From Prosthecobacter vanneervenii (GTDB lineage Bacteria; Verrucomicrobiota; Verrucomicrobiia; Verrucomicrobiales; Verrucomicrobiaceae), in NCBI RefSeq assembly GCF_014203095.1, contig NZ_JACHIG010000002.1, positions 115,695-179,694 of the forward strand: a stretch of DNA of 64,000 nucleotides, in the 5' to 3' direction. The notes below the pieces were generated by a model that did no database searches, was not told where the DNA came from, and was given only the letters and a program-made list of their open reading frames with translations. Shown piece by piece: positions 7,570 through 46,705 of the stretch; position 1 is the stretch's first letter, and the number at the start of each line of letters is the position of its first letter. Both the position numbers and the translations under genes were made by a program.

Positions 7570-8292
7570 TCATGGATGGATCAGGGCCCAGCATGCCATG
7601 ACGAGCATGAGTGCGTCTTCGATGATGGTGACAGTGGACATGGGCAGATTGAACACCGTGCCAAGGCAGGCGCAGCGTATGGCTTTCCTAGACATCACCG
7701 CCCTGAGCACGCCCAGCAGGCTAACGCCCATGACCAGCGCCGTGATGGCATTCACACAAGCGGGTTGCACGTTAGCCAAGTAGGCGAGGCCGAGAAGGAG
7801 CTCGATAAAGGGATACACGAATCCATACGATGGCAGCACCTTGGCCACGAGATCGTAGCTGCGGTAGGCATCGCTAAAGCCGCGCAGGTCGAGCATTTTA
7901 AAGAAGGAAAAAGCGATGAAGAAGCCGCCCATGAAAAGCCGCATGGAGAGCGCCGGATCAAAGTCGCCCTGCATCACATTCACCGCCGTGATGACCAGCA
8001 GCAGATAGCTCAAAAGGATGATGAGCGGACGGTAAGTGCGGGTGCTTTTGGCGGGCAGCTCGGATTCTTCAGGAGCAGCCGGGGCGGCCACCTGATACTT
8101 CCCCAGAGGACGCAGCCACTCGTTCATTTCCTCATCGCTAAGCACATGATTGGTCCTGATGCTGGCCTGGGGAGGATGCAGGGTGACGACAGCTTCGGTG
8201 ATGTCTGGATGCTTCTGCAGCCTTGTGGTGATTTTTTCCACGCAGGAGGTGCAGGACAAGCCGGTGAGTTCGAATTTCTGTGGAAGGTTCAT
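7570..8292 (-). CDS. HMA domain fused to a MauE/DoxX-type membrane protein, 240 aa
   Basis: Residues 1-70 form a heavy-metal-associated domain with the binding motif GLSCTSC (C14, C17). After a linker come four hydrophobic helices (about 88-108, 115-135, 150-185, 195-235) resembling MauE/DoxX-like proteins, and a Cys pair RCACLG near the end. The HMA part would bind Cu(I) or a similar metal, and the membrane part may couple this to thiol redox chemistry. It is the last gene of the minus-strand copper operon. The ATG at 8292 has an A/C-rich leader without a Shine-Dalgarno site. Confidence 0.78.
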   Translation of the reverse strand: MNLPQKFELTGLSCTSCVEKITTRLQKHPDITEAVVTLHPPQASIRTNHVLSDEEMNEWLRPLGKYQVAAPAAPEESELPAKSTRTYRPLIILLSYLLLVITAVNVMQGDFDPALSMRLFMGGFFIAFSFFKMLDLRGFSDAYRSYDLVAKVLPSYGFVYPFIELLLGLAYLANVQPACVNAITALVMGVSLLGVLRAVMSRKAIRCACLGTVFNLPMSTVTIIEDALMLVMACWALIHP

Positions 8293-8421: not shown

Positions 8422-8733
8422 TCAGTGGCCGGTGCAGTGGTGCAGAGTACCGCCGCAGGTCTTGCATGTATGCTTGGTCATGCTGCCGTTTTTCAGCATG
8501 GCCACGACCTGGTTTTCACAGTCTGCACAGCTCATGCTGTCAGAGTGCTTCAGAGTCACGAGCCCCTTCGGGCCGGGGCCGGTGGAGGCTGGAGACATGA
8601 AGTGAACGGTGTGGCATTTGGTGCATGTCACTGCGCTGTGTGGCGCAGAGGCGGGAGCCTGGCAGGAGGCGAGCATCAGCGCGCTGAGCGCACTGATGCC
8701 GAGGAGGGCGGTACGGATGAGTTTCGTTTTCAT
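8422..8733 (-). CDS. Cys-rich metal-binding-like lipoprotein, 103 aa
   Basis: A lipobox LASC (acylated C24) follows a hydrophobic leader. The mature part has three CxxC pairs (C37/C40 in TCTKCHTVHF, C69/C72 in SCADCENQ, C90/C93 in CKTCGG) and a terminal HHC. This suggests a membrane-anchored metal-binding or thiol-redox protein. Its place between a copper oxidase and an HMA protein suggests copper. I know no named family for it. The start at 8733 has an A/C-rich leader ending CACACC directly before the ATG. The open frame continues upstream, but that extension is not protein-like. Confidence 0.72.
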   Translation of the reverse strand: MKTKLIRTALLGISALSALMLASCQAPASAPHSAVTCTKCHTVHFMSPASTGPGPKGLVTLKHSDSMSCADCENQVVAMLKNGSMTKHTCKTCGGTLHHCTGH

Positions 8734-8845: not shown

Positions 8846-9097
8846 TTAGAGCTTCGAGAGATACTTGGCTGGATTGGCCTCGAACTTCTTGAGGCAGGGC
8901 TTGCAGCAGAACTTGATCTCCTGGCCGTTGTACACGGTGCTGACGGGCCCGCCCATGCTGTCGAGGTCATTGCCTGTGACGAGGCAGACCTTCAGCGGAT
9001 AGGGTTTGGCACCACCGAGGGTGGAGGTGCCCGCACAAGAGACCAGTCCGAGGCTAAGCAGCAGGGTGGCAAGGAGGATGAGAGTGTTTGTTTTCAT
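8846..9097 (-). CDS. Small lipoprotein with a YHS/TRASH-like metal motif, 83 aa
   Basis: The lipobox LVSC places the lipidated Cys at residue 21. The mature domain reads CLVTGNDLDSMGG (C38), then GQEIKFCCKPCLKKFEANPAKYL (C64, C65, C68). This is the pattern of YHS- or TRASH-like metal-sensing/binding modules, in which Cys residues near a Phe and a terminal helix bind a metal. It is probably an exported copper-binding protein working beside the oxidase encoded upstream. The leader is A/C-rich and ends in ACCACC before the ATG, with no Shine-Dalgarno site. Confidence 0.75.
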   Translation of the reverse strand: MKTNTLILLATLLLSLGLVSCAGTSTLGGAKPYPLKVCLVTGNDLDSMGGPVSTVYNGQEIKFCCKPCLKKFEANPAKYLSKL

Positions 9098-9152: not shown

Positions 9153-11345
9153 TCAAAAGCGGATGATGAGGCCGACGCCGGGGCCGTAGTCGCTGTGATA
9201 GCTGGCGGAGAGGGAGACATTGCGCGCCAGCGTGTAGTCGGCGGAGGTGCTCCATTCCCAGCGGCTGCCGGTGTCATAAAAGGCGTAGCCAGACACACCG
9301 AGACGAGGCGTGAGCTGAAAGCGCTTGGAAAGCTGGAACCGCCCGTTGCCGTTGCTGTCCACGGTGAAGTCCGCCAGGAACATGAGCGGCAGCCGGTAAT
9401 TGAACCCGGCGATGATGCGGTTTCCGCCGCCATGGTTGGCAAAGCGGAAGCCTGCGTAGGCCTGGAAGTTCATGTTGAAGTAGCGCTGGTAGATCGCGTC
9501 CACTTCATGCTCGGTGTAGGGCTTGCGCCGCCAGCCCAGCTCCCAGAAGAGGAGCAGGTTGTTTTTAGGGTTCATCCAGGAGAGCAGCCCGTTGCTCATC
9601 TGTGTCTGGAGCGATGCCGCGCCCCAGACATAGCTCATGTCATGGGCGTGCTCGCCGAGTCCGGCGGCATGGTCATGACTCAGGAAGGAGCGCGGCTTGG
9701 CGGTGTGCGCTGCATGAGAGACGGCCGACATGCCGGTGAGCCCGGCGGCATTGGCGAGTGTGTCGGCTGCAGCCTCGCTCATGGCTGCACCATGGTGAGG
9801 AGTCTCAGCAGCATCGTCCGGTTCGTAGCGAAACACCCGGGCCATGCCGCTCATCATGTGGTAGAGGATATGGCAGTGAAACATCCAGTCCTTGTCCTCA
9901 TTGGCCTCAAATTCGAGCAGACGCCGGCCCATGGGGGGGACATCGACGGTGTGCTTGAGCGGAGAGCGTGAGCCGCCGCCCATGAGCAGACGGAAGAAAT
10001 GGCCGTGCAGGTGGATGGGGTGGTGCATCATGCTGTCATTCACCAGTTCCAGCTCGATGATCTCCCCCTTCCTTATTTTGATATAAGGCTCCTGGGCGAT
10101 GGTCTTGCCATCAAAGCTCCAGACATAGCGCACCATGTCTCCGGTGAGGTGCAGGGTGATCCGGCGGCGCGGGAGTTTTGACGGAAGCGTCGTGTCGTGC
10201 GTAGCTTTCAGCAGTTTGTAGGGCGAGCCTGGGCGGGGCAGCCGGAGCGGGGCGCGGGGATCTGCCTCCTGCTCTTCCAGCGAGAGGGCGAGCATCTGAT
10301 CCATCTGGTAGAGATTGGGGCGCGGAGGGCTTTGGGCCGCATGCCGTTCCCCCTCGCCAAAGGAGGCGGAGGCGTACCCGCTGCCATCCTGCGCGGTGGC
10401 GCGCAGCTCATACTCGCCACTGGCGGGGATGGTGATGATGAGGTCGTAGGTTTCTGCGATGGCCATGAGAAAGCTGCCCACCTGCACAGGCTGCACAGGC
10501 GGGCCGTCTGCAGCCACGATGGTCATGGGACCGGAGCTGGAGCTGAGATGGTAGTAGGTGGCGGCGGAGGCATTGATGACCCGCAGGCGCACGCGCTCGC
10601 CGGGGCGGCCGGTGATGCGGGTCTGCCGCTGGCCATTGATCAAAAAGGCATGGTAGCCCACATCGGAGACGTCCATGGGCACCATGCGATTCCATTCTCT
10701 GAGGAAGTAGTCCTTCAGGTTGCCACGCTGCCACGCGCCGAGGATGGTTTGCGAATTTTTCCGCATGAGGCCGAAGTAGTCGCTGCCGCGCATGAGCATG
10801 CGCATGACCTCGTGCGGGTCGGTATTGGTCCAGTCGGAGAGAATGAGCACCTGCTCGCGGTCTGCCTTCATCGGCTCGCCGCCGTGTGGCTCCACGACGA
10901 TGCCGCCGTAAACGCCGCTCTGCTCCTGCAGGTGGGTGTGGGAATGAAACCAGTAGGTGCCGCTCTGCCGCAGCTGAAACTCAAAGGTGTGGGTGGTACC
11001 GGGCTTGATGGGAGGTGTGGTGACGTACGGCACGCCATCCTCCTTGTTGGGCAGCAGCAAGCCGTGCCAGTGAGTGGAGGTCTCCTCATTCCGCAGGTCA
11101 TTGTGGACGCGGATGCGGGCAAAGTCCCCCTCACGGAAACGCAGCACCGGCCCCGGGATGCCACCATTGATGGTGAGGACACGCACCTGCCTGCCCGCCG
11201 GGGCCAGGCGCTGCTCGGAGATGTGCAGGTCGTACTCGACGACGCGCTGGCCGGAGGCTGGTTGGGTTTTCTTGCAGGTGTCGCAGGCAAGAGCTGCGCC
11301 GGGTGCCAGGAGTACGGCACTCGCCAAAAGAGAAAGTGTTTTCAC
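9153..11345 (-). CDS. Multicopper oxidase (CopA-like) fused to a CopB-like outer-membrane beta-barrel, 730 aa
   Basis: A signal peptide (1-20) and a CxxC (C21, C24) precede three cupredoxin domains. Copper ligands are present: HWH (92-94), HSH (134-136), HPIHLHGH (442-449) and HCHILYHMMSGM (H490, C491, H492, H496, M501). A His/Met-rich linker (about 515-570) leads to a C-terminal region (about 570-730) with alternating aromatic strands ending in IIRF, the CopB-type outer-membrane domain. CopA oxidises Cu(I) and CopB binds or retains copper at the outer membrane. They are normally separate proteins. The gene sits in a five-gene copper operon. The oxidase assignment is firm; the CopB assignment of the tail is good but from pattern only. 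Confidence 0.88.
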   Translation of the reverse strand: MKTLSLLASAVLLAPGAALACDTCKKTQPASGQRVVEYDLHISEQRLAPAGRQVRVLTINGGIPGPVLRFREGDFARIRVHNDLRNEETSTHWHGLLLPNKEDGVPYVTTPPIKPGTTHTFEFQLRQSGTYWFHSHTHLQEQSGVYGGIVVEPHGGEPMKADREQVLILSDWTNTDPHEVMRMLMRGSDYFGLMRKNSQTILGAWQRGNLKDYFLREWNRMVPMDVSDVGYHAFLINGQRQTRITGRPGERVRLRVINASAATYYHLSSSSGPMTIVAADGPPVQPVQVGSFLMAIAETYDLIITIPASGEYELRATAQDGSGYASASFGEGERHAAQSPPRPNLYQMDQMLALSLEEQEADPRAPLRLPRPGSPYKLLKATHDTTLPSKLPRRRITLHLTGDMVRYVWSFDGKTIAQEPYIKIRKGEIIELELVNDSMMHHPIHLHGHFFRLLMGGGSRSPLKHTVDVPPMGRRLLEFEANEDKDWMFHCHILYHMMSGMARVFRYEPDDAAETPHHGAAMSEAAADTLANAAGLTGMSAVSHAAHTAKPRSFLSHDHAAGLGEHAHDMSYVWGAASLQTQMSNGLLSWMNPKNNLLLFWELGWRRKPYTEHEVDAIYQRYFNMNFQAYAGFRFANHGGGNRIIAGFNYRLPLMFLADFTVDSNGNGRFQLSKRFQLTPRLGVSGYAFYDTGSRWEWSTSADYTLARNVSLSASYHSDYGPGVGLIIRF

Positions 11346-11451: not shown

Positions 11452-11829
11452 TCAGGTCAACAGGGAGCAGAGCAGCACGCTCAGCCGCACATGGGGCCGG
11501 GTGTTGGCGTGCTCTGCATCAGCGGGCCGGATCGTGCAGCCCGTCTGTTTTACCTGGAAAGGAGAGAAACGAAAATCCTGCGAAAGCGCCGTCCACACCA
11601 CCTGGGGGATGAAGCTGCGACCTTCCGAGGCAGGTGGCAGTTGTGCAGGAAGGTTCTGATCTGGGAGAGAGGGCTCGGCGCACGAGCAGTCTGACATGCC
11701 TGCCTGCTCCAGCCATGCGCAGCATGCCATCTGGCATTTCTCCACCTGCGGAGAGGCAGAGATGATCAGCGGTGCTGTCTGCATCAGCAGCACCAGCATC
11801 ATCAGACACATCTGGAGGACACGTTTCAT
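11452..11829 (-). CDS. Small secreted Cys-rich protein at the head of the copper operon, 125 aa
   Basis: A signal-like leader (about 1-25, with many Met) is followed by a short Cys cluster, KCQMACCAW and SDCSC. The rest has no recognisable domain. Being the first gene upstream of the CopA-CopB fusion, on the same strand with a 106-bp gap, suggests a periplasmic copper-linked role, as Met/Cys-rich leaders are common in such operons. Function unknown. Confidence 0.58.
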   Translation of the reverse strand: MKRVLQMCLMMLVLLMQTAPLIISASPQVEKCQMACCAWLEQAGMSDCSCAEPSLPDQNLPAQLPPASEGRSFIPQVVWTALSQDFRFSPFQVKQTGCTIRPADAEHANTRPHVRLSVLLCSLLT

Positions 11830-24896: not shown

Positions 24897-27800
24897 ATGA
24901 GCTTTTCGTTTAGAGGTTTGTTTCAGCGCGGAACCGGTTCTCATGAACCGGTGCAGGGCGTTCAGCAATACTTCACAGGAGCACATAATCAGAGGGTGGC
25001 GGGTCCCGGAACACAAAGTCTTCCCCCCATGCAAGCCTCCTCAGTTCCACCATTTTCAGCAGGCGCTTCTCCGTTTCAGATGAGCGGGGGACCGCTGTTT
25101 AAAACTGCAGGCAATGAACCTGTGGCAGCCCCGCCGATCAATTCCACCACAGGCCTTTCCCCATTTAGCGTAGCCGGAGCCACCCCCACCAATGCACCTT
25201 TGACGGTCGGAGACGTGATCCAGCAGTTGCCTCCCGAAGTGGTGCGTGGGGGAGCGCTGCCTATGGAGCAGCCACTCTCCCTGCCCCCGGCGCTGGTGGA
25301 AAATGCACTGCGCAGCGGACAAGCTGCGCTACCGGTTTTTGAGCTTTATCGAGTCTGCCCGGCCATGTTTCAGGTGCCCATCTCGCCACAGGATCCGCGT
25401 ATGGTTTCACTGCCAGCAACGAAGCTGCCCGGCCTGATCGCCCAGGCGCGTGAGAGCGCTCCTGCACCACACCCTCCGGCCATGCCGCCAGGAAGCTCTG
25501 CTGCTGCCGGCTCTCCTTTCTCGCTGGCGCAGCCTGTGCCCACGCCAAATTCACCTGCGGGATCACCTTTTCAAATGCAGCCGCCCGCGAGCCCGTTCTC
25601 TCCAGTGGCCCGCATGCCTGAGCCAGCTGGTGGCAGTCCTTTTTCTATGCCGCAGGCTGGAGGTGGCAGCCCCTTTTCCATGACTGGAGGGGACGGAGCC
25701 TCGCCCTTTGGGCAGCCTGCGCCGGGTGCACCGGCGGGTTCTCCCTTTTCTCTGGGTGGGGCGAAGGCATCCCCCTTTGAAGCAGCCTCCACAGCGGGGA
25801 GTCATGCAGGTGGCTCGCCATTTTCCACTGCAGCGGCGCCTCTGCCAGCGCCGGGAGCGCCTGCGGGCTCTCCATTCTCCCTCGGAGGTTTTCTGACTGC
25901 AAGCCAGCATGGTGAGGCACCTTTACCAAAGCCTGCACCTGGCGCCCCTGTGGGTTCACCATTCTCCCTAGGTGGCAGTTCGCCTTTTGGCACAGCATCT
26001 ACGCCACAACCAGCGCCGGGAGCACCGGCGGGTTCCCCCTTCTCTCTCGGGGGTGCCGCAGGTGGGTCTCCCTTCGCCGCAGTCTCGACATCCCAGCCTG
26101 CGCCGGGTGATTCGATGGGTTCGCCGCTCTCCTTCGGCGGTGGTGCTGGCGGCCCAGCTTTCAGCGCGGCTGCCGAGCCTCAGCCCGCGCCGGGTGCCCC
26201 TGCAGGTGCACCTTTCTTGATGGGTGGTGGCGTTGGTGGTTCGCCGTTTGGTGGAGCCTCGACAGCGCCTGCGAGTTCGCTGTTTGGAGCATCAGGCGCA
26301 CAGCCACTGATGGGCGCAGCACAGGCCTCATCAGCCTTTGTGTCCGGCCATCAGGCGAATTCATCTTTTGGCAGTCCGCCGGCCTCTCAACCGCCGCCCG
26401 CTCCGGAAAAAGTAGAGCTTGGTCAGGTTTCGATCTCCCAGCTTTTCACACCGCAGTCCCAGGCGCAGGCCTCTACGCCCGCCGATGCCGCAGGCGCACC
26501 CGCCATGCCGTTTGGCTCTCCTTTTGTGTCCGCAATGAAGGAAGCAGCTCCTCCGTCGGCTGAGCCTGGAGCCCCTGAGCCACCCGCCATGCCAGTCGGG
26601 CTCTCCGCCTTTGCCACCCTCTCCCCACAGCCGACTGTGCAGGCGCCGATGCAGTTTGCCCCGGCACCCGCAGCCAATCCTTCCGGCTTTGCACCGCTGA
26701 CGCTGCAGCCTGCTGCAACTGCTGCACCCTCTGCCTTTGGCGCATCCGCCCCTGCCCCTTCCGGCTCCACGGCCAGTGCGCCGGGCGTGGTGAAGCTGGG
26801 CTTTGCCGCAGTGCTCAATGGCCGCAGCATGGAAGAACTGGGCTTCAACCCCAGCACCCTGCCCGCATGGATCTCCACCAATGTTCCTGCGCATGTGCTC
26901 AAAGAGCAGATGGCCACCGGCAACTTTGTGGTGGAGCTGGGTCTGCTGATCGATGGGCTGACGGACATTGGCTTCCGCAACACACTTGGAAGCGCAAAAC
27001 GCGACTGCAGCATCAGGCTGCCGCAGAATGAAGTTTTCCATGCACTGACCCAGGCTGGCAGCAGCGGGGCACCGGCCGCTGCGCAGACCATGCCTGCTGG
27101 GGTGCTGCCCACGGCACGCCCCACGACAATGCAGGTGGTGCCCGCCCAGCCACAGCCTGGCGCTCAGGTAGTACAGTCCCTCTTTGGCCAGCCTGCAGCA
27201 GAGCCCAAACCTCAGCCCGCAGCAGAGCCTGTGTCAAAAGCTGCGCTCAATCCCTTCGGCCAGAGCCAGCAAACACCAGCCCCGATCACAGCCTTTCGTG
27301 CCATGCCGCCCGCAACAGCGGCCCCAGCGCCTTTCAGCTTCCCGTCTGCACCGACACTGGCTCCAGCCACTCCGGCAGCAGGATTTGGCTTCTCGACACC
27401 GCCCGCGCCGGCAGAACCGCCGCCTCCTGCCGTCAGCCAGGCTCCTGCTGGCATTTCCCTTTTTGGAGGATCATCTCCATCTCCCGCAACCCCCGCCGCT
27501 GCGCCGCAGCAGCCCCTGCCCGGTGCATTCCAGAATTTCGGAGCTCCCCCCACTGGATCAATTAAACCGTTTGATCCTTTTGCTTCATCATCCGCAGGTC
27601 CTCTGCCTTCGTCCAAAATCGGCCTGCCAGCAGATTCCGCCTCTGGTTTCAGCAGCGCGCAGCTTCTGGGGCAGGCGCCTGCATCTCAGTCTGGAGGATC
27701 ACTCTTTGCACCAGCCCCCGAGACCAAGCCCGCGACTACGAGCGGCATGTTTGCCCCGGCGCCTGAGATCAAGCCGCAGGGCGCAACAAGTCTCTTCGCG

Positions 27801-28499
27801 CCCTCTGCAGCACCCGAAAACAAGCCGGCCACCACCAGCCTTTTTGCCACCCCCTCTCCTGCGCTGCTACAACCCACCGCAGCCATGGCCCCTGCACTGG
27901 AGGAGATCCCATCCTTTTCGCCCGCCCCCATGACTGAGGCCAAGGCGGCCACGCGCAGCCTGTTTGGCTCCGGCGCGGGCAGCATCCCGCTTTTCTCAGA
28001 TCCTCCTCCCACGCCCAAGAGCAGCGCCGCGCCTGCACCGGCCCCGGCACCTGCCAAGCCTGCGCCCCCCAAGACCTCTTACCTGGGGCTGGCCCCGCTG
28101 GACACCCAGACGGACCAGCTGCTGCTCCGCGCGCTGCTGGCCACCGAGGAGAAGCTGGACGCCCAGCGCGTGGTGGAAAAGCTGGGCTCCATGCCCGGAC
28201 TGAGCGCCTGCGTGTGCCTGAGCGGCGCACGCGTGCTGAGCCATGCCAACCTGGCCAGCGTCGAGGCCGCCCAGTTTCAGCAGCAGGCGCCGGAGATCGC
28301 ACGCCAGCTGCGCGGACTGGTGCCGCTGATCGGCATCGACGGGGCGGAGACCTTTACCCTGAACGCCGGCGGCCGCCTGCTGACCTTCTGCTTCCCTGGA
28401 GAGAGCATCGTGGGTGTGCTGCACGATGAAGAGCCCAGCACGGGCATGCGTGACAAGATCACCCTCATCGCGCGCGAGCTGGCGCGCATGCTGGGCTGA
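24897..28499 (+). CDS. Giant FG/SPF-repeat low-complexity protein with C-terminal Roadblock/LC7 domain, 1200 aa
   Basis: I read six parts. (1) A short N-terminus MSFSFRGLF. (2) A folded segment at about 101-184 (PLTVGDVIQQLPPEVVR to VSLPATKLPGLI). (3) A disordered Pro/Ala/Gly/Ser stretch with some eighteen SPF triplets; six imperfect units of the type PAPGAPAGSPFSLGG lie between about 272 and 450. (4) A second folded segment at about 629-715, patterned like the first (SGQ/TGN, then Phe, then LP). (5) A second disordered stretch with SLFG, NPFG, SLFAPAP and similar FG-type motifs; FG dipeptides total about fourteen across the protein. (6) A Roadblock/LC7-like domain at about 1065-1200 (TDQLLLRALLATEEKLDAQ, VLHDEEPSTGMRDKI). 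No signal peptide or membrane helix. An MglA-type GTPase gene follows. Roadblock domains act on Ras-like GTPases; the low-complexity function is inferred. Not an FG-nucleoporin homologue by any visible ancestry. Confidence 0.75.
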   Translation: MSFSFRGLFQRGTGSHEPVQGVQQYFTGAHNQRVAGPGTQSLPPMQASSVPPFSAGASPFQMSGGPLFKTAGNEPVAAPPINSTTGLSPFSVAGATPTNAPLTVGDVIQQLPPEVVRGGALPMEQPLSLPPALVENALRSGQAALPVFELYRVCPAMFQVPISPQDPRMVSLPATKLPGLIAQARESAPAPHPPAMPPGSSAAAGSPFSLAQPVPTPNSPAGSPFQMQPPASPFSPVARMPEPAGGSPFSMPQAGGGSPFSMTGGDGASPFGQPAPGAPAGSPFSLGGAKASPFEAASTAGSHAGGSPFSTAAAPLPAPGAPAGSPFSLGGFLTASQHGEAPLPKPAPGAPVGSPFSLGGSSPFGTASTPQPAPGAPAGSPFSLGGAAGGSPFAAVSTSQPAPGDSMGSPLSFGGGAGGPAFSAAAEPQPAPGAPAGAPFLMGGGVGGSPFGGASTAPASSLFGASGAQPLMGAAQASSAFVSGHQANSSFGSPPASQPPPAPEKVELGQVSISQLFTPQSQAQASTPADAAGAPAMPFGSPFVSAMKEAAPPSAEPGAPEPPAMPVGLSAFATLSPQPTVQAPMQFAPAPAANPSGFAPLTLQPAATAAPSAFGASAPAPSGSTASAPGVVKLGFAAVLNGRSMEELGFNPSTLPAWISTNVPAHVLKEQMATGNFVVELGLLIDGLTDIGFRNTLGSAKRDCSIRLPQNEVFHALTQAGSSGAPAAAQTMPAGVLPTARPTTMQVVPAQPQPGAQVVQSLFGQPAAEPKPQPAAEPVSKAALNPFGQSQQTPAPITAFRAMPPATAAPAPFSFPSAPTLAPATPAAGFGFSTPPAPAEPPPPAVSQAPAGISLFGGSSPSPATPAAAPQQPLPGAFQNFGAPPTGSIKPFDPFASSSAGPLPSSKIGLPADSASGFSSAQLLGQAPASQSGGSLFAPAPETKPATTSGMFAPAPEIKPQGATSLFAPSAAPENKPATTSLFATPSPALLQPTAAMAPALEEIPSFSPAPMTEAKAATRSLFGSGAGSIPLFSDPPPTPKSSAAPAPAPAPAKPAPPKTSYLGLAPLDTQTDQLLLRALLATEEKLDAQRVVEKLGSMPGLSACVCLSGARVLSHANLASVEAAQFQQQAPEIARQLRGLVPLIGIDGAETFTLNAGGRLLTFCFPGESIVGVLHDEEPSTGMRDKITLIARELARMLG

Positions 28500-37880: not shown

Positions 37881-40073
37881 CTACTTTTCCACCCGCACCG
37901 CCGAGTGCTTGTAGCTGGGCTGGCGACTATGCGGATCAAACGACGCATGCGTGAGCTGGTTCACGCGCGGATCGTGCATGGGCAGGAACACCTCTCCCGG
38001 CCGCACGCAGGTGGTGAGGCGGGCTTTGGCGGTGAGTTCGGCGCGCTTGGAAATGACACGCACCTGCATGCCATCGCGAATGCCGAGCGCATCGGCATCC
38101 TGAGGATGGAGATCCAGCATAAGCTCCTGCGGCATCATCTTGGCCAGCACGGCGGACTTCCGTGTGCGCGTCTCAGTGTGCCACTGCGCGCTGGTGCCAC
38201 GGCCGGTGATGAGCACGAGCGGATACTCCGTGCTGCGCTGCTCGGGGATGGGCTGCGGAGCCTCGAAGACGAACCTGGCGCGTTTGTCGGGCGTGTAAAA
38301 CTTCCCATCCTCAAACAAGCGGCGCTCCTTCCAGGTGGTGGCCTTGAACTTGGCGGCGTCATCCTTGCTGAGCGGCCACTGCACACCACCGGATTTATGC
38401 ACCATCTCATGGCCGGAGATACCAGAGATGTCGCAGGGCTGGCCCTCGGTGCAGCGCTGCAGCACGCGAAAGACAGACTCCGGGGTGCTCCAGGCGCGGA
38501 AGAGATCTTCGCAGCCCCAATAGTGGGCGATGAGGCGGAAGATGTGGAAGTCTGCGAGCGCCTGACCGGGAGCGCGACGCACCTTGGGGCTGTAGCCGAT
38601 GCGGCGCTCGCTGTTGATAAAGCAGCCGTCCTTTTCCCCCCAGCCTGCTGCGGGCAGCACGAGGTGGGCGCGCTTCGCCGTCTCGGTGCTGCAGTACATG
38701 TCCTGCACGACGATGAAGTCGAGCTTGTCGAGGATGCGGTTGATCTCGTTCTGGTCGATCCACGAGTGGCTCGGATTGGTGGCCACAAACCACAGGGCTT
38801 TCACCGTGCCTTCATCGGCGGCCTTGAGGATCTGGTCATACGCCAGGCTGGGGCAGTCGGGTATGCGCTCCACGGGAATGCCTGTGGCAGTGGCGACTTT
38901 TTCACGATGGCGCGGATTGCGGAAGTCGTGACCTCCCAGCAGATTTGTGGTGTTGGAGAAGAGGCGCGATCCCATGGCATTGCACTGCCCGGTGATGGAG
39001 TTGGCCCCGGTGCCGGGCTTGCCGATGTTTCCGGTCATCAATGCCAGATTGATGATGGCCTGGGCGGTGCGTGTGGCCTGATGCCCCTGGTTCACCCCCA
39101 TCGTCCACCAGAAGGAGACGCGCGGCGTGCCGTGGATGATGGTCTGCGAGAAATGCACAAGGCGATGCACGCTAATGCCCGTCTCCTGCGAGACGCGTGC
39201 GGGATGAAAGTCGGCGAGGAATTTTTGAAACTCATCAAAGCCTGTGGTGTGCTGCTCGACAAAGGAGGTGTCCACTCCACCGTCGCGAATGATGAGATGG
39301 GCGATGCCGTAAAGGAGGGCGAGGTCGCTTTTAGGTTTGATGGCATAATGCTGCGTGGCGGCCATGGCCGTCTCCGTGGCACGGGGATCGACGACGATGA
39401 TCTGCGGGTTGCGCTTGTTGCGCAGCACACGCTGCCACATGATGGGATGGGCGATGCAGGGATTGGCCCCGATGAAGACGAGCACGTCGCTCTCCTCAAA
39501 GTCCGCGTAGGTGAATGGCGGCGCATCAAAGCCGAAGCTCTCCTTGTAGGCGGTGACGGCAGTGGCCATGCACTGGCGAGTGTTGCCATCGCCATGGATC
39601 ATGCCCATGCCAAACTTGGCCAGCGCGCCAAGGTAGGCCATCTCCTCAAACATGATCTGCCCGGTGCTGATGAAGGCGGCGGCTTCGGGGCCGTGCTTGT
39701 CCAGCACGGTGCGCATCTGATCGCAGAAATAACGGAGTGCGGTGTCCCAGTCCACCTCTCTCCCATGCAACAGTGGCATGCGGGCGCGGTCGGGCGCATC
39801 GAGCACGCTGAGCGCCTCCCAGCCTTTGGGGCAGGCGGTGCCGATGTTGACAGGATAGTCGGGGTCCGGGGTGAGATTGACCGCAGTGCCGTCTTTGAGA
39901 TGCACCTTCAATCCGCAGCCGGTGGAGCAGAAACCGCAGACGGCTTTTGTAGCGGCGTCTGGCAGCAGATGCGCGGGCACCTGACCGAGCCCGAAGCGCG
40001 CGGGCTCGCGCACAAGATCGGCGGTGAGCGGGCCATCCCACTCGCGCAAGGTCATGGCGGGCAGTTTCATCAT
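37881..40073 (-). CDS. nasA: Assimilatory nitrate reductase catalytic subunit, molybdopterin type, 730 aa
   Basis: The N-terminal [4Fe-4S] site is C46, C49, C53 and C81. The bis-MGD molybdenum ligand is likely C168 in [10 protein letters not shown]. Typical blocks follow: [49 protein letters not shown] and [20 protein letters not shown]. No Tat signal, so it reduces nitrate to nitrite in the cytoplasm. It lacks the C-terminal BFD-type [2Fe-2S] domain of some NasA proteins. It is the last gene of the minus-strand nitrate cluster and starts 2 bp after the DmsBC-like gene, its probable electron donor. Confidence 0.92.
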
Positions 40074-40075
40074 GG

Positions 40076-41668
40076 TCAGTTTCCTGGCATTTTAGAGCCT
40101 GCGGCGGCGGTGAAGAAATAAAGCCTCTCGATGAGCTGGCTGCCAAAGGTGAGCAGCAGAGAGAGGGTGAACATCCAGTGGGCTGCGGCACCACCGGCGA
40201 TGGTCACCGGTATGAGCAGGCCTGTGGCGATGAGCAGCAGGCCGCGTGCCTCAATGCGCCGGGAAAGATGCCGCTGCATGATGCGCGCGGATTTGTGCCA
40301 GAGGCAGGATTCATTCGCCAGCGCACGACGGTAGGAGGAGATCTCCCACAGGGACAGAGTCCAGCGGAAGAGCAGGACCAGCGCCATGGCCCAAGTGGCG
40401 GCACTGATGCCGGCCCAATGCCACACAGCAGCGCACAATCCAGCACCCAGCAGCAGCGTGGTGCCGATGAATTTGACGCTCACATTTTTCAGTGACCAGA
40501 ACGGCCTGCGTGTGTCCACATAGACCATCACGGAGCACCACACGGCCAGCAAAGCGGCGAAAGCAGTACCGGTGACGGCGAGGCGCATCCACTCGATGTT
40601 TCCGAGCCACCAGGTGGCAGCAATGGTCATGCCGCCTGCGGGCAGCGCACCAAAAGCCATAATCTCTCGCGAGAGCCATGACCTGCGCCAGCCAAGGAAA
40701 GCGCGCCAGGCTTTCAGCGGCTGGCCGAGATGCAGCGTGCTGAGGCCCACGCCAGCCAGTCCCGCCACGAGTGCGAAGGCGCTGGTGACGGCAGCCTGCT
40801 GGAGTGTGAGCCAGTGCAGCCACATGGCCGCGGCGCAGAAGGTGAAGGCTCCGGCGCTCATCTGCGTGAGCACGAGCATCCATGCGAGGGGATCGTGATG
40901 ACCGTGATCCAGGTCCAGCCGCCCGGCGTCGGCTGCCTGTGCGGCGGACGGCACCGGCTGCGTGGAGACATAGGTGGTGGTGGGGCGTGTGTAGCTGGAA
41001 TCAAACGCGCCCGCGATCATTCTACCATGATCTGGCACAGCATCGAGCTTCACGACTTTGATCTTGATGGCTTCATTCGGGCAGGACTGCACGCATGCGG
41101 GGGCCTCTCCTTCAGCGAGGCGGCCCTGGCACATGTCGCATTTGCGCACGATGCCGCGCTTGAGATTGAACTTCGGCACATCATAGGGGCATTTCAAAAT
41201 GCAGTAGCTGCAGCCGATGCATTGGTCGTCCAGATGACGAACGATGCCGGTGGTGCTGTCTTTGTCATAGGCCAGCACGGGGCAGCCCTCTGCGCAGGCG
41301 GGGTCGGCGCAGTGATGGCAGGCGGTGGTGACGGTCTGCAGATAAGGCTGCTTTCGCGTCCCCACGAGCAGGCCCATGTCCCGCCAGCTTTCGCCTTCAT
41401 CCAGTCCATTGAGGGAATGACAGGCGGCCACGCAGGCCTTGCAGCCGGTGCAGGCGTCGAGATTCACCTCAAAGGCATACTGCTCTCCCGACTGCGGCTT
41501 GCTCAGCGGGATCAGGTGCGTGAAGCGCTCCCGTACGGAGCGGGAGTCGTATTCTTCGGAGAAGAGAGCGACGGGGGTGCGGAGCGTCTGCTGCTCGCGG
41601 AGCGCGGCGTCAATGATGCTGACGCCGGAGCCTCCGGCTGAGATTGAGCGCTCCATGTCGCGAATCAT
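40076..41668 (-). CDS. Fused DmsB-like ferredoxin and DmsC-like membrane anchor, 530 aa
   Basis: Residues 1-215 hold four [4Fe-4S] clusters: C73/76/79/83, C117/120/125/129, C150/153/156/160 and C177/180/192/196. From about 250 on, seven or eight membrane helices with a DmsC pattern follow ([29 protein letters not shown]). In DMSO reductases DmsB and DmsC are separate and pass electrons from quinol to a molybdopterin subunit. Here one chain does both, coded directly before nasA, so it is likely a quinol-to-NasA electron link on the inner face of the membrane. Start at 41668, with GGAGG at the end of the nitrite reductase gene. Confidence 0.87.
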
Positions 41669-41671
41669 GGC

Positions 41672-43426
41672 TTAGCAGTTAAACACCTCCTGAAGCTGGC
41701 CCACCGTGTGCCGGTTGCAGAAGGCGTGGAAGGACTCCCCTTCGCTGCGCTGCGCCAGATAGCCTTTGAGCATGGCCTCCAGCGTGGTGCCCAGGGATTC
41801 AAAGGCCACGCCGCTGAAGATCTGACGGCCGATCTTGCGGTTTTCGCCGAAACCACCGCCTACTGTGATATGGTAGCCTTCTCCGCTCTCGGATTTCACC
41901 TTGGTGCCGAGCAGGCCGATATCACCCATGAAGTGCTGGGCGCAGGAGTGGGCGCAGCCGGTGAAGTGAATGTTCACCGGGCGGTCGAGCTTCACACGCT
42001 TGTCCAGGTACTCCATCATGGCGATGGCGTGGCCCTTGGTGTCGCTGGCGGCAAACTTGCAGTACTTGTTTCCGGTGCAGGCCACGAAGCCGCTTTTGAG
42101 ATTGGACTGCTCCGTGGGGAAGCCGAGCTTCTTGAGCGACTTCGCCACCGTGGCGGCGTAGGTGGCCTTGACGTTCGGAATGATGAAATTCTGCCAGACG
42201 GTGAGGCGCACTTCGCCGGAGCCGTAGCTGTCTGCGAGATCGGCGATGCGATCGAGCTGCCGTGCCGTGAGCTGCCCCACCGGCACGCTGGCGCCGACGT
42301 AAACGAGCCCCTCCTGCTTCTGCGGGTAGGTGCCCACGTGGGAGTGCCCCTGCTGGGAGAACTCGCGCTTTGCCTGGCAGGCGGCGTCCGGGGCAAGGCG
42401 GGTGAGCTTGAACTTCAGGAACTTCTCCGTCTCCACCAGCACGCCATCGAGGCCCTTGTCCTCCACGACGTATTTGAAGCGTGCCTTTTTGCGGTTGGTG
42501 CGGTCACCGAACTGGATGAAGACGCGCAGCAGGGCCACCATGACATCATTGAGCTGCTCGGGCTTGACGATCACGCCCCAGTCGCTGGCAAAGGTCTGAT
42601 GACCGGTGACGCCGCCGAGGGCGATGCGGAAGTACACGCCGGGCTCGATGCCCTCGGAGTTTTCCGTGATGCGCACGGCGCTGGCGCCGATGTCGTTGGT
42701 GTCTTCCACGGCGGAGATCAGCCCACCGCCGTCGTAGGCGATGTTGAACTTGCGCGGCAGATCGTAGAACTCCTTGGAAGCGATGATGAGCGTGGCCAGT
42801 TCATTGACGAGCGGGCGCACGTCGATGAGCTCATGCGGATCATAGCCCGCGCAGGGGTTCATGGTGATGTTGCGGATGTTGTCCGCGCCAGCACCTTTGG
42901 AGTGGAGGCCGCAGCCCTGAATGCGGCGGAGCACCTCGGGGCAGTTTTTCGGCTCGATGAGGCGGATTTGAAAATTGTTCCGCGTGGTGATCTGGATGTA
43001 TCCGGTGGTGAGCTCACGTGCGATGGCGGCCAGCTCGCGGAGCTGGTAGCTTTTCACGATGCCGCCGGGAATGCGCAGACGGCACATATAGCCGTCCTTC
43101 ACCGGATTGAGCCAGAAGAGGCCGTTCCACTTGTAGCGGAAGACGGATTCGGGCTCGGGCTTGGCATTCCAGCGCGCGTCCATGACGAGCTGCTCGATGG
43201 CGTCAAAGGGGTGGAGTTCGCGCTTGATGCGCTCCTCCTTGGTGAGGTCATCAAGAGAGGGGCCTGCAGGCGCGGCGGCCACAGGTGCGGCGGAAAGATC
43301 TCCGAAGGAGACCCCGCCGGCGGCGATGCCGGCAAAGAAGCCTTCGAGGTAGCGCTTTTGCTCGCCGGTGAAATCGGCGGAGGTGGAGGGCGCGAGGGCG
43401 GGTGGTTCAATAGACATCGCGGGCAT
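41672..43426 (-). CDS. nirA: Siroheme [4Fe-4S] nitrite reductase (NirA / sulfite-reductase-like), 584 aa
   Basis: The siroheme/[4Fe-4S] cysteine motifs ACTGNKYCKFA (about 447-457) and FTGCAHSCAQH (about 486-496) are present. Two repeat halves are visible, with the RNNFQIR and RLTVWQNF siroheme-binding loops. It reduces nitrite to ammonium with six electrons. The N-terminus (FTGEQKRYLEGFFAGIAAGG) resembles the one in the CysJ-like protein and may be an interaction helix. Start at the ATG at 43426, with AAGGAG seven bases upstream. It overlaps the flavoprotein gene by 20 bp, so the two are coupled. Sulfite could be an alternative substrate, but the context says nitrite. Confidence 0.92.
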   Translation of the reverse strand: MPAMSIEPPALAPSTSADFTGEQKRYLEGFFAGIAAGGVSFGDLSAAPVAAAPAGPSLDDLTKEERIKRELHPFDAIEQLVMDARWNAKPEPESVFRYKWNGLFWLNPVKDGYMCRLRIPGGIVKSYQLRELAAIARELTTGYIQITTRNNFQIRLIEPKNCPEVLRRIQGCGLHSKGAGADNIRNITMNPCAGYDPHELIDVRPLVNELATLIIASKEFYDLPRKFNIAYDGGGLISAVEDTNDIGASAVRITENSEGIEPGVYFRIALGGVTGHQTFASDWGVIVKPEQLNDVMVALLRVFIQFGDRTNRKKARFKYVVEDKGLDGVLVETEKFLKFKLTRLAPDAACQAKREFSQQGHSHVGTYPQKQEGLVYVGASVPVGQLTARQLDRIADLADSYGSGEVRLTVWQNFIIPNVKATYAATVAKSLKKLGFPTEQSNLKSGFVACTGNKYCKFAASDTKGHAIAMMEYLDKRVKLDRPVNIHFTGCAHSCAQHFMGDIGLLGTKVKSESGEGYHITVGGGFGENRKIGRQIFSGVAFESLGTTLEAMLKGYLAQRSEGESFHAFCNRHTVGQLQEVFNC

Positions 43427-45073: not shown

Positions 45074-46705
45074 TCACTTCAGCGTGAGGAGCTTGAAGGC
45101 GAGGCAGAGCGTGGTGAGCAGCAGGATGAAGAATCCGATCTTGTAGAAGACGAGCGGGTTGCGCTCGATGAGGGGCGTGTCGGCCTCATGAAAGGGCTGC
45201 ACACGGTCGGGGTGGCAGAGATCGTGCAGCAGCTCGGAGTAGTGCTGGTAGCGGCGCTGCGGCTGGATGGCGATGGCGCGATGGATGACGGCCTCCAGCC
45301 ACGAGGGGATGTTGGGATTGATCCTGGAAAGCCTCCGCGCAGGATGGAAAACGGGCGTCTGAAAGCGCTCGATCTGGCCGTAAGGCAGGCGTCCAGCAAG
45401 AGCCTGGTATAATGTGACACCGATGGCGAAGACCTCCGTGCGCTCGCTGATAGGGGCCTCATGAAAGCGCTCTGGTGCCAGATAGCTGGCGGTGCCTGCA
45501 CGGGAGGAGACGGAGAAGATGGCGGCGGCGCTGCCGAGGTCGACAAGCTTGAAGGTGAGGCGTGTGTAGTCACCGATGCAGAGGATATTCTCGGGCTTGA
45601 TGTCGCCATGCGCGAGATCCAGGCGCAGCAGCACCTGCGCGGCCTCGGCGAGAAATTTTCCCAGCGCGATGGCGGAGTCCACCGAGAGTACGCGCTCCCG
45701 CAGCACAGCGGCGAGGCTGGGCGCATCCACAAACTCCATGAGATAGCAGCGCGTGGTGAGTGCGGGCGGCTCATAGGCACGCACAAAGTGGGAGGACTGC
45801 GCGCGGGTGGCGTTCCACACTTCATGCGAAAAAGCCTCCAGGTGCGGGGCGCTGTCGATGGCCTCCACGGGTGCAAACTTCATGACGACACGGTGGCCGT
45901 CTTTCTCTGCGAGCCATACGCGGCTGGTGCCGTGGAAGGAGCGGATGAGTTCGTAGCCGTCGATGACATCGCCCTTGTTCAAGGTAGCAGGGATGCTGAG
46001 GGAGCGTGCATTCATGGCGCGCAAGCGGCCGGTCTGCTGGATGTCCAGCACAAGGGCGCTCATGTCATCGAGCGTCTCGTCTTTGGCCTGCTGGCGTGCG
46101 GCGAGCACGATGCTGCGTGCGGAGCAGTGCTGGGAGAGCGCGGTGGTGAGATCGTGCTCGGAGATGTGATTGGAGACACCGTCGGAGCAGAGCATGGCCA
46201 CATCGCCATCCTGCAGAGTGAGGGTGAAGCATGCGGGCTCCACCTCCGCCTGCATGCCGAGCGCTCGCGTGAGCACATTCGTGCGCTCCTTTTCCACATG
46301 CGGCGTGGAGAGCGTGTGCAGGCCGCCATTGCGCCAGAGATACACGGCGGAGTCTCCGAGATTGATGCCGTGCAGCGTGTCCCCCTCGATGACCACAGCA
46401 GCCAGCGTGGCCACCATCTCCGTGCGCTCATAGCGCACCTGGGACTCCTGATAGAGCGACTGATTGAGAATGCGGGCAAAAGTGGTGAGCGCCTGGCGCG
46501 GCGACCAGGAGCGCGGGCGTGCGCTGTAGTGCTCGATGAGCGAGCTGACGGCACGCTGCGCGGCCTCGCGTGCGGGTGCGCCGCTGCCTGCGCCATCGCT
46601 CAGCACGGCGATCACGGTTTCGTCCCACGCACGCAGCGCGAAGGCGTCCGAGGAGGGAGTGCCCTCCTCTCGCGCGATCCCGTGGCTGGTGGTGAGAATT
46701 TTCAT
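45074..46705 (-). CDS. Bifunctional PP2C phosphatase / Ser-Thr kinase with C-terminal membrane helix, 543 aa
   Basis: Residues 1-235 are a PP2C-type phosphatase (VIAVLSDGAGSG, INLGDSAVYLWRNG, DGDVAMLCSDGVSNHIS). Residues about 250-510 are a kinase domain (VVMKFAP, HGDIKPENILC, VDLGSAA, GTASYLAPERF, EVFAIGVTLYQALAGRLPYG). The HRD motif is HGD and DFG is DLG, while the catalytic Asp and Asn are kept. A membrane helix ends the protein (about 522-540, GFFILLLTTLCLAFKLL). Such fusions are known in nitrate-assimilation clusters; they probably switch a nitrate protein by phosphorylation. Target unknown. Confidence 0.88.
   Translation of the reverse strand: MKILTTSHGIAREEGTPSSDAFALRAWDETVIAVLSDGAGSGAPAREAAQRAVSSLIEHYSARPRSWSPRQALTTFARILNQSLYQESQVRYERTEMVATLAAVVIEGDTLHGINLGDSAVYLWRNGGLHTLSTPHVEKERTNVLTRALGMQAEVEPACFTLTLQDGDVAMLCSDGVSNHISEHDLTTALSQHCSARSIVLAARQQAKDETLDDMSALVLDIQQTGRLRAMNARSLSIPATLNKGDVIDGYELIRSFHGTSRVWLAEKDGHRVVMKFAPVEAIDSAPHLEAFSHEVWNATRAQSSHFVRAYEPPALTTRCYLMEFVDAPSLAAVLRERVLSVDSAIALGKFLAEAAQVLLRLDLAHGDIKPENILCIGDYTRLTFKLVDLGSAAAIFSVSSRAGTASYLAPERFHEAPISERTEVFAIGVTLYQALAGRLPYGQIERFQTPVFHPARRLSRINPNIPSWLEAVIHRAIAIQPQRRYQHYSELLHDLCHPDRVQPFHEADTPLIERNPLVFYKIGFFILLLTTLCLAFKLLTLK

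Follow-up and report, generated by a model that had tools for sequence, protein, structure and literature searches.

A CopA/PcoA-type multicopper oxidase and a short β-barrel homologous to CopB/PcoB are encoded by one continuous reading frame in Prosthecobacter vanneervenii, and related fusions are widely distributed among bacteria. The product is probably a Cu(I) oxidase joined by a His-rich linker to its own barrel, exported by Sec and inserted by BAM, with the oxidase at the periplasmic mouth of the barrel. The window analysed is the whole 64,000-nucleotide stretch of contig NZ_JACHIG010000002.1 (positions 115,695 to 179,694), and coordinates given here are those of the window. The frame occupies positions 9153 to 11345 on the minus strand, starts with GTG and encodes 730 aa with no internal stops. 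From the N terminus, the architecture is a signal peptide, a complete multicopper oxidase, a disordered His-rich linker and a C-terminal barrel. The signal peptide (aa 1 to 21; 11283 to 11345, minus strand) is of the Sec type, ends in ALA/C, is followed by a CDTC motif and lacks a twin-arginine motif. Its LAC stretch is compatible with a relaxed lipobox pattern, and on this sequence pattern the protein might be lipidated. An xxLAC-like signal end followed by CxxC was also observed at this site (11283 to 11345, minus strand) in most of loci L001 to L019. The closest named relative in a scan of species genomes was a fusion from a Prosthecobacter metagenome bin, with 74% identity.

The oxidase region (aa 35 to 510; 9816 to 11243, minus strand) contained three cupredoxin domains, every one above its Pfam cut-off (Cu-oxidase_3, E 7.7e-41; Cu-oxidase, E 4.8e-18; Cu-oxidase_2, E 6.5e-35), and was modelled with pLDDT values mostly above 85. 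All four of the copper-ligand blocks claimed in a preliminary description of this DNA were located on the minus strand. Block 1 is HWHG (aa 92 to 95; 11061 to 11072), which was invariant in a 44-row alignment, and block 2 is HSH (aa 134 to 136; 10938 to 10946), in which H136 was invariant and H134 was present in at least 90% of the rows. Block 3, identified by its motif and from the same alignment, is HPIHLHG (aa 442 to 448; 10002 to 10022). Block 4, HCHILYHMMSGM (aa 490 to 501; 9843 to 9878), contains HCH at aa 490, H496 and M501 and supplies the type-1 Cys and the axial Met. Nearly all of the copper-ligand residues were invariant across the 44 rows. The nearest subfamily is NCBIfam TIGR01480 (CopA/PcoA type), short of formal membership, the score of 421.6 bits lying below the curated cut-off of 478.95. 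The Met-rich insertion typical of many CopAs was absent from the window protein. Cu(I) is the presumed substrate.

The C-terminal region (aa 572 to 730; 9156 to 9632, minus strand) was assigned as a CopB-related, 12-stranded β-barrel from profile comparison, AlphaFold, Foldseek, VIA and a tail HMM. AlphaFold predicted exactly 12 strands, with pLDDT values of about 91 to 98 per block, and the terminus reads ...GVGLIIRF, in agreement with an earlier reading of this region as a barrel-like end with a terminal Phe. Structure prediction also favoured the proposed relationship, as the best PDB match of the tail in Foldseek was 7PGE, PcoB (E 9.0e-6). Among the matches listed by VIA, PcoB 7PGE was the best (Z 16.2, 159 aligned, rmsd 3.2) and KdgM-type porins were level with it (Z 15.5 to 15.8); the fold alone, therefore, cannot single out CopB.

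The sequence relationship to CopB is invisible to Pfam and NCBIfam for the single window protein or its tail and appears only with relatives and profiles. A search with the Pfam CopB model (PF05275) gave a divided result: the window's own tail stayed below the gathering cut-off, with no match even at E 10, whereas at the E limits used 7 of 13 related tails (best, 1.2e-9) and, in a set of 44, 7 related tails (best, 1e-7) were matched. Comparison by hhalign of the 44-row tail alignment with a profile of six CopBs gave a probability of 97.0 (E 9.8e-11, 114 columns), and the six CopBs taken singly gave 58 to 95.5. Control barrels of Escherichia coli reached 15.7 (PldA), 2.2 (OmpX), 1.2 (OmpW) and 0.3 (Tsx), and three reversed CopBs reached at most 2.5. 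An HMM built from fused tails alone matched six of seven stand-alone verrucomicrobial CopBs (5.9e-7 to 6.8e-11). Searches of the sequences of solved structures recovered PcoB 7PGE with the CopB profile (A2), and the sole return with the tail profile (A1) was a designed barrel, 9fdg (E 1.1e-5). We conclude that the tail is homologous to CopB, without qualifying formally for the Pfam family. The original proposal, which joined an oxidase of the CopA type to a CopB-like barrel, was thus upheld by the oxidase domains together with the CopB profile match.

Between the two halves lies a His-rich linker (aa 513 to 561; 9663 to 9809, minus strand), assigned as disordered from pLDDT values below 50 and from its composition. 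The stretch from about aa 513 to 570 contains 8 His and 3 Met residues, as expected from its earlier description as a His/Met linker. His accounted for 14.3% of the linker in 20 close relatives (L001 to L020), compared with 3.8% across the whole proteins, but for only 4.0% of the linker in 80 wider relatives, indicating that His richness is a feature of this clade and is not general to the fusion.

In the proposed mechanism, Sec would export the fusion protein unfolded and BAM would insert the barrel into the outer membrane, after which the oxidase would fold and acquire its copper on the periplasmic side, up against that membrane's inner face. Oxidation of Cu(I) to Cu(II) would take place where the barrel opens, and His residues of the linker could plausibly stand in for the disordered N-terminal domain of PcoB, holding or passing Cu(II). 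The linker occupies the place of that domain as described for Caulobacter PcoB, in which it is His-rich, stabilises PcoA and is a proposed docking site (PMC12509749). The proposed placement follows from strand number: with 12 strands, an even number, both ends of the barrel should lie on one side, and the termini of PcoB, also of 12 strands, are reported to be periplasmic (PMC9210255). On this reasoning the oxidase is most likely anchored by a CopB-like channel at the periplasmic face of the outer membrane. The preliminary description had placed it on that face and had linked oxidation to storage; its placement is favoured indirectly, by the strand number and a periplasmic N terminus as in PcoB, while storage found no support. 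CopB/PcoB is treated in the sources cited as an outer-membrane channel whose direction of copper transport is disputed, with uptake (PMC9210255) and efflux (PMC12509749) both proposed.

Passage of copper through the barrel is a weaker claim than placement. The PcoB pore acids D97, E130, E187, E207 and E223 aligned to A576, F600, L657, R675 and F689, so that none of the five was kept, in an alignment that is weak over tail strands 1 to 3. The pore chemistry is, therefore, unconserved at the aligned sites, which leaves copper conduction unproven and makes possible, although on balance unlikely, a role of the barrel as a mere outer-membrane anchor that has lost conduction. Such a role would also fit the lesser length of the tail relative to PcoB (159 aligned residues, from a chain of 198) and the confinement of the His-rich linker to one clade. 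Against it, other charges in the tail were strongly conserved (E614 in 42, R669 in 43, R681 in 40 and E697 in 38 of 44 rows) and the tail travelled with a copper oxidase in the set examined. Some barrels thread a domain outward, and the oxidase could on that precedent be displayed on the cell surface. This arrangement is very improbable given the even strand number, with both ends on the same side, the narrowness of the barrel and the lack of any second translocation part among the features seen; the periplasmic termini reported for PcoB (PMC9210255) also oppose it.

An assembly error or frameshift peculiar to one genome can be dismissed with near certainty as the source of the fusion. Metagenome-derived contigs may carry errors, and the frame of one relative (L028, in G027) is split by an apparent frameshift, but the frame was unbroken in 29 of 30 loci (one from the window genome, the others from 29 relatives), in the best 80 loci of the species-genome scan, all of which ran from the oxidase to the end of the tail, and in complete plasmid records. 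The scan used a full-length alignment (A3) as the query, and its best 80 loci provide no estimate of frequency because they were picked by similarity to the fusion; 43 of the 80 loci L043 to L122 were taken into alignments A4 and A5. Related fusions were read in loci of 10 phyla. Verrucomicrobiota, Bacteroidota, Pseudomonadota, Nitrospirota, Planctomycetota, Acidobacteriota, Bdellovibrionota, Myxococcota and Delongbacteria were represented in the scan, many of whose loci came from metagenome bins, and complete plasmid records with an unbroken fusion added Fusobacteriota and further Bacteroidota. The plasmid records carry no annotation beyond 'multicopper oxidase domain-containing protein' or 'multicopper oxidase type 3', so that the CopB half is easily overlooked.

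A survey of 288 Verrucomicrobiota genomes, a set less biased than loci picked by similarity, was used to compare fused and separate forms. The tail profile matched 29 of these genomes and an oxidase-only query (E 1e-40) matched 34. An oxidase above 300 bits occurred in 27 genomes, all of them among the 29 tail genomes, with the tail on or beside the oxidase; the two remaining tail genomes carried a fragment only (G307) and a separate CopB (G148). In each of the seven genomes with a more distant oxidase (205 to 250 bits), a separate CopB gene adjoined it. No genome of the 34 combined a close fused copy with a distant separate pair at the thresholds used. In two of the 27 genomes the copy was broken by an in-frame stop. 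These two copies, with TGA and TAG stops (G162:C1:2245677-2246261 and G316:C66:1227-1766, respectively), are apparent pseudogenes or assembly errors. A tail-only frame, L147, was considered as a stand-alone tail and rejected, as it is terminal on a short contig and was read as a fragment. The earlier statement that separate CopA and CopB genes are the norm is true of proteobacterial operons and of these seven verrucomicrobial genomes but needs qualifying, since the fused form is common and has already been published.

Fused and separate oxidases differed in their export signals, a Sec-type signal in the fusions replacing the Tat-type signal. A twin-arginine motif in the N-terminal stretch was found in only one fusion out of 110 (L011, where it precedes the likely start; the N terminus of L028 was missing), compared with 13 of 15 separate oxidases, the exceptions being L146 and L157; the proteobacterial members of the latter set were hand-picked from plasmid matches. 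TatC is encoded in the window's genome. An outer-membrane barrel must arrive at BAM unfolded, and a working fusion would, therefore, need to lose Tat export. This contrast predicts that fused oxidases are metallated after export.

In a tree of the oxidase region only, 114 fusions were split from 10 separate oxidases by one branch with a support of 99, so that one main fusion event is likely. This tree left out L028, which is partial, and the Acinetobacter soli CopA (L152), for which no single frame was recovered. The fusion of Legionella fallonii (L143) fell on the side of the separate oxidases, with a branch length of 2.13 flagged as unsafe by the program, and may represent a second fusion origin. 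A fuller scenario is offered tentatively and is open to considerable doubt: a single old fusion, now in at least 10 phyla, would have turned PcoA and PcoB into one oxidase-plus-channel protein, with Tat export given up as the barrel depends on the Sec-BAM route, metallation in the periplasm and delivery of Cu(II) directly to the protein's own pore.

Since the fusion occurs in many bacteria and reports from Legionella and Bizionia came earlier, the window protein exemplifies a known architecture and is not a novel one. A fused PcoA-PcoB was reported in Legionella in 2012 (PMC3548706), with a multicopper oxidase and a CopB-type barrel in one polypeptide, like the window protein. The L. fallonii fusion differs in three respects: its barrel is nearer to canonical CopB (CopB HMM, 5e-20; tail HMM, 1.7e-5), it carries a long insert of Met-rich repeats, and its oxidase joins the separate CopAs in the tree by a very long branch. 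It may have arisen separately, though this is unproven. A flavobacterial multicopper oxidase from Bizionia argentinensis (G2EDV6) is described as porin-like in its C-terminal residues 611 to 809, with some similarity to PcoB (PMC11213822, 2024), and by this published description has the same architecture as the window protein. Like the fusions of Legionella and Bizionia, the window protein has the oxidase and the CopB-like barrel in one unbroken frame. Among the papers listed in literature searches for fused or C-terminal-barrel forms, no further report was found. One candidate report of a 'fused CopA' (PMC11082258) was rejected, since the part of it available concerns copA-like genes fused to gfp, of the CopA transporter type. 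In the proteobacterial PcoA-PcoB and CopA-CopB systems, a homologous oxidase and a homologous 12-stranded barrel are encoded by adjacent genes; they differ from the window protein in being two proteins, in the Tat signal on the oxidase and in the greater length and acidic pore of PcoB. What is added here is the breadth of the fusion, which recurs in Bacteroidota and Verrucomicrobiota, together with its tidy split from separate copAB and the Tat/Sec contrast. The manner in which PcoA and PcoB work together, like the direction of copper through PcoB, is disputed in the two accounts cited (PMC9210255, PMC12509749). Because the two parts have a set stoichiometry and spacing in a natural one-chain form, its barrel could be deleted or mutated without losing expression of the oxidase from a second gene.

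The neighbouring genes fit a copper-handling operon, given the conservation of YHS, Cys-rich and HMA-MauE proteins beside the fusion. Three downstream genes probably belong to the same operon: a YHS-domain lipoprotein of 83 aa (8846 to 9097, minus strand; PF04945, E 7.5e-8), a Cys/His-rich lipoprotein of 103 aa (8422 to 8733, minus strand), assigned from its ORF and by neighbour comparison, and a MauE-like membrane protein with a fused HMA metal-binding domain (7570 to 8292, minus strand; PF07291, E 2.1e-13; PF00403, E 7.3e-6). In all 13 relatives examined, a homologue of the YHS lipoprotein lay downstream of the fusion, at a distance of at most 450 nt, and in 6 of them a homologue of the HMA-MauE protein lay near it. 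Homologues 38 to 40% identical to the latter (7570 to 8292) were observed near the Bacteroidota fusions L078, L079, L092, L094, L098 and L115. Upstream is a gene for a small secreted Cys-rich protein of 125 aa (11452 to 11829, minus strand), with no Pfam match and a conserved CxMxCCA...DCxC pattern, and homologues preceded the fusion in 10 of the 13 relatives; its product is possibly a copper-binding or regulatory leader protein. PADLOC gave no match. Elsewhere in the window, a 1200-aa open frame (24897 to 28499, plus strand) had no Pfam match at E 1e-5. A 543-aa protein (45074 to 46705, minus strand) combines a PP2C-type phosphatase with a following protein kinase domain and adjoins a nitrite/sulphite-reductase and molybdopterin oxidoreductase cluster (37881 to 43426) and an MFS transporter.
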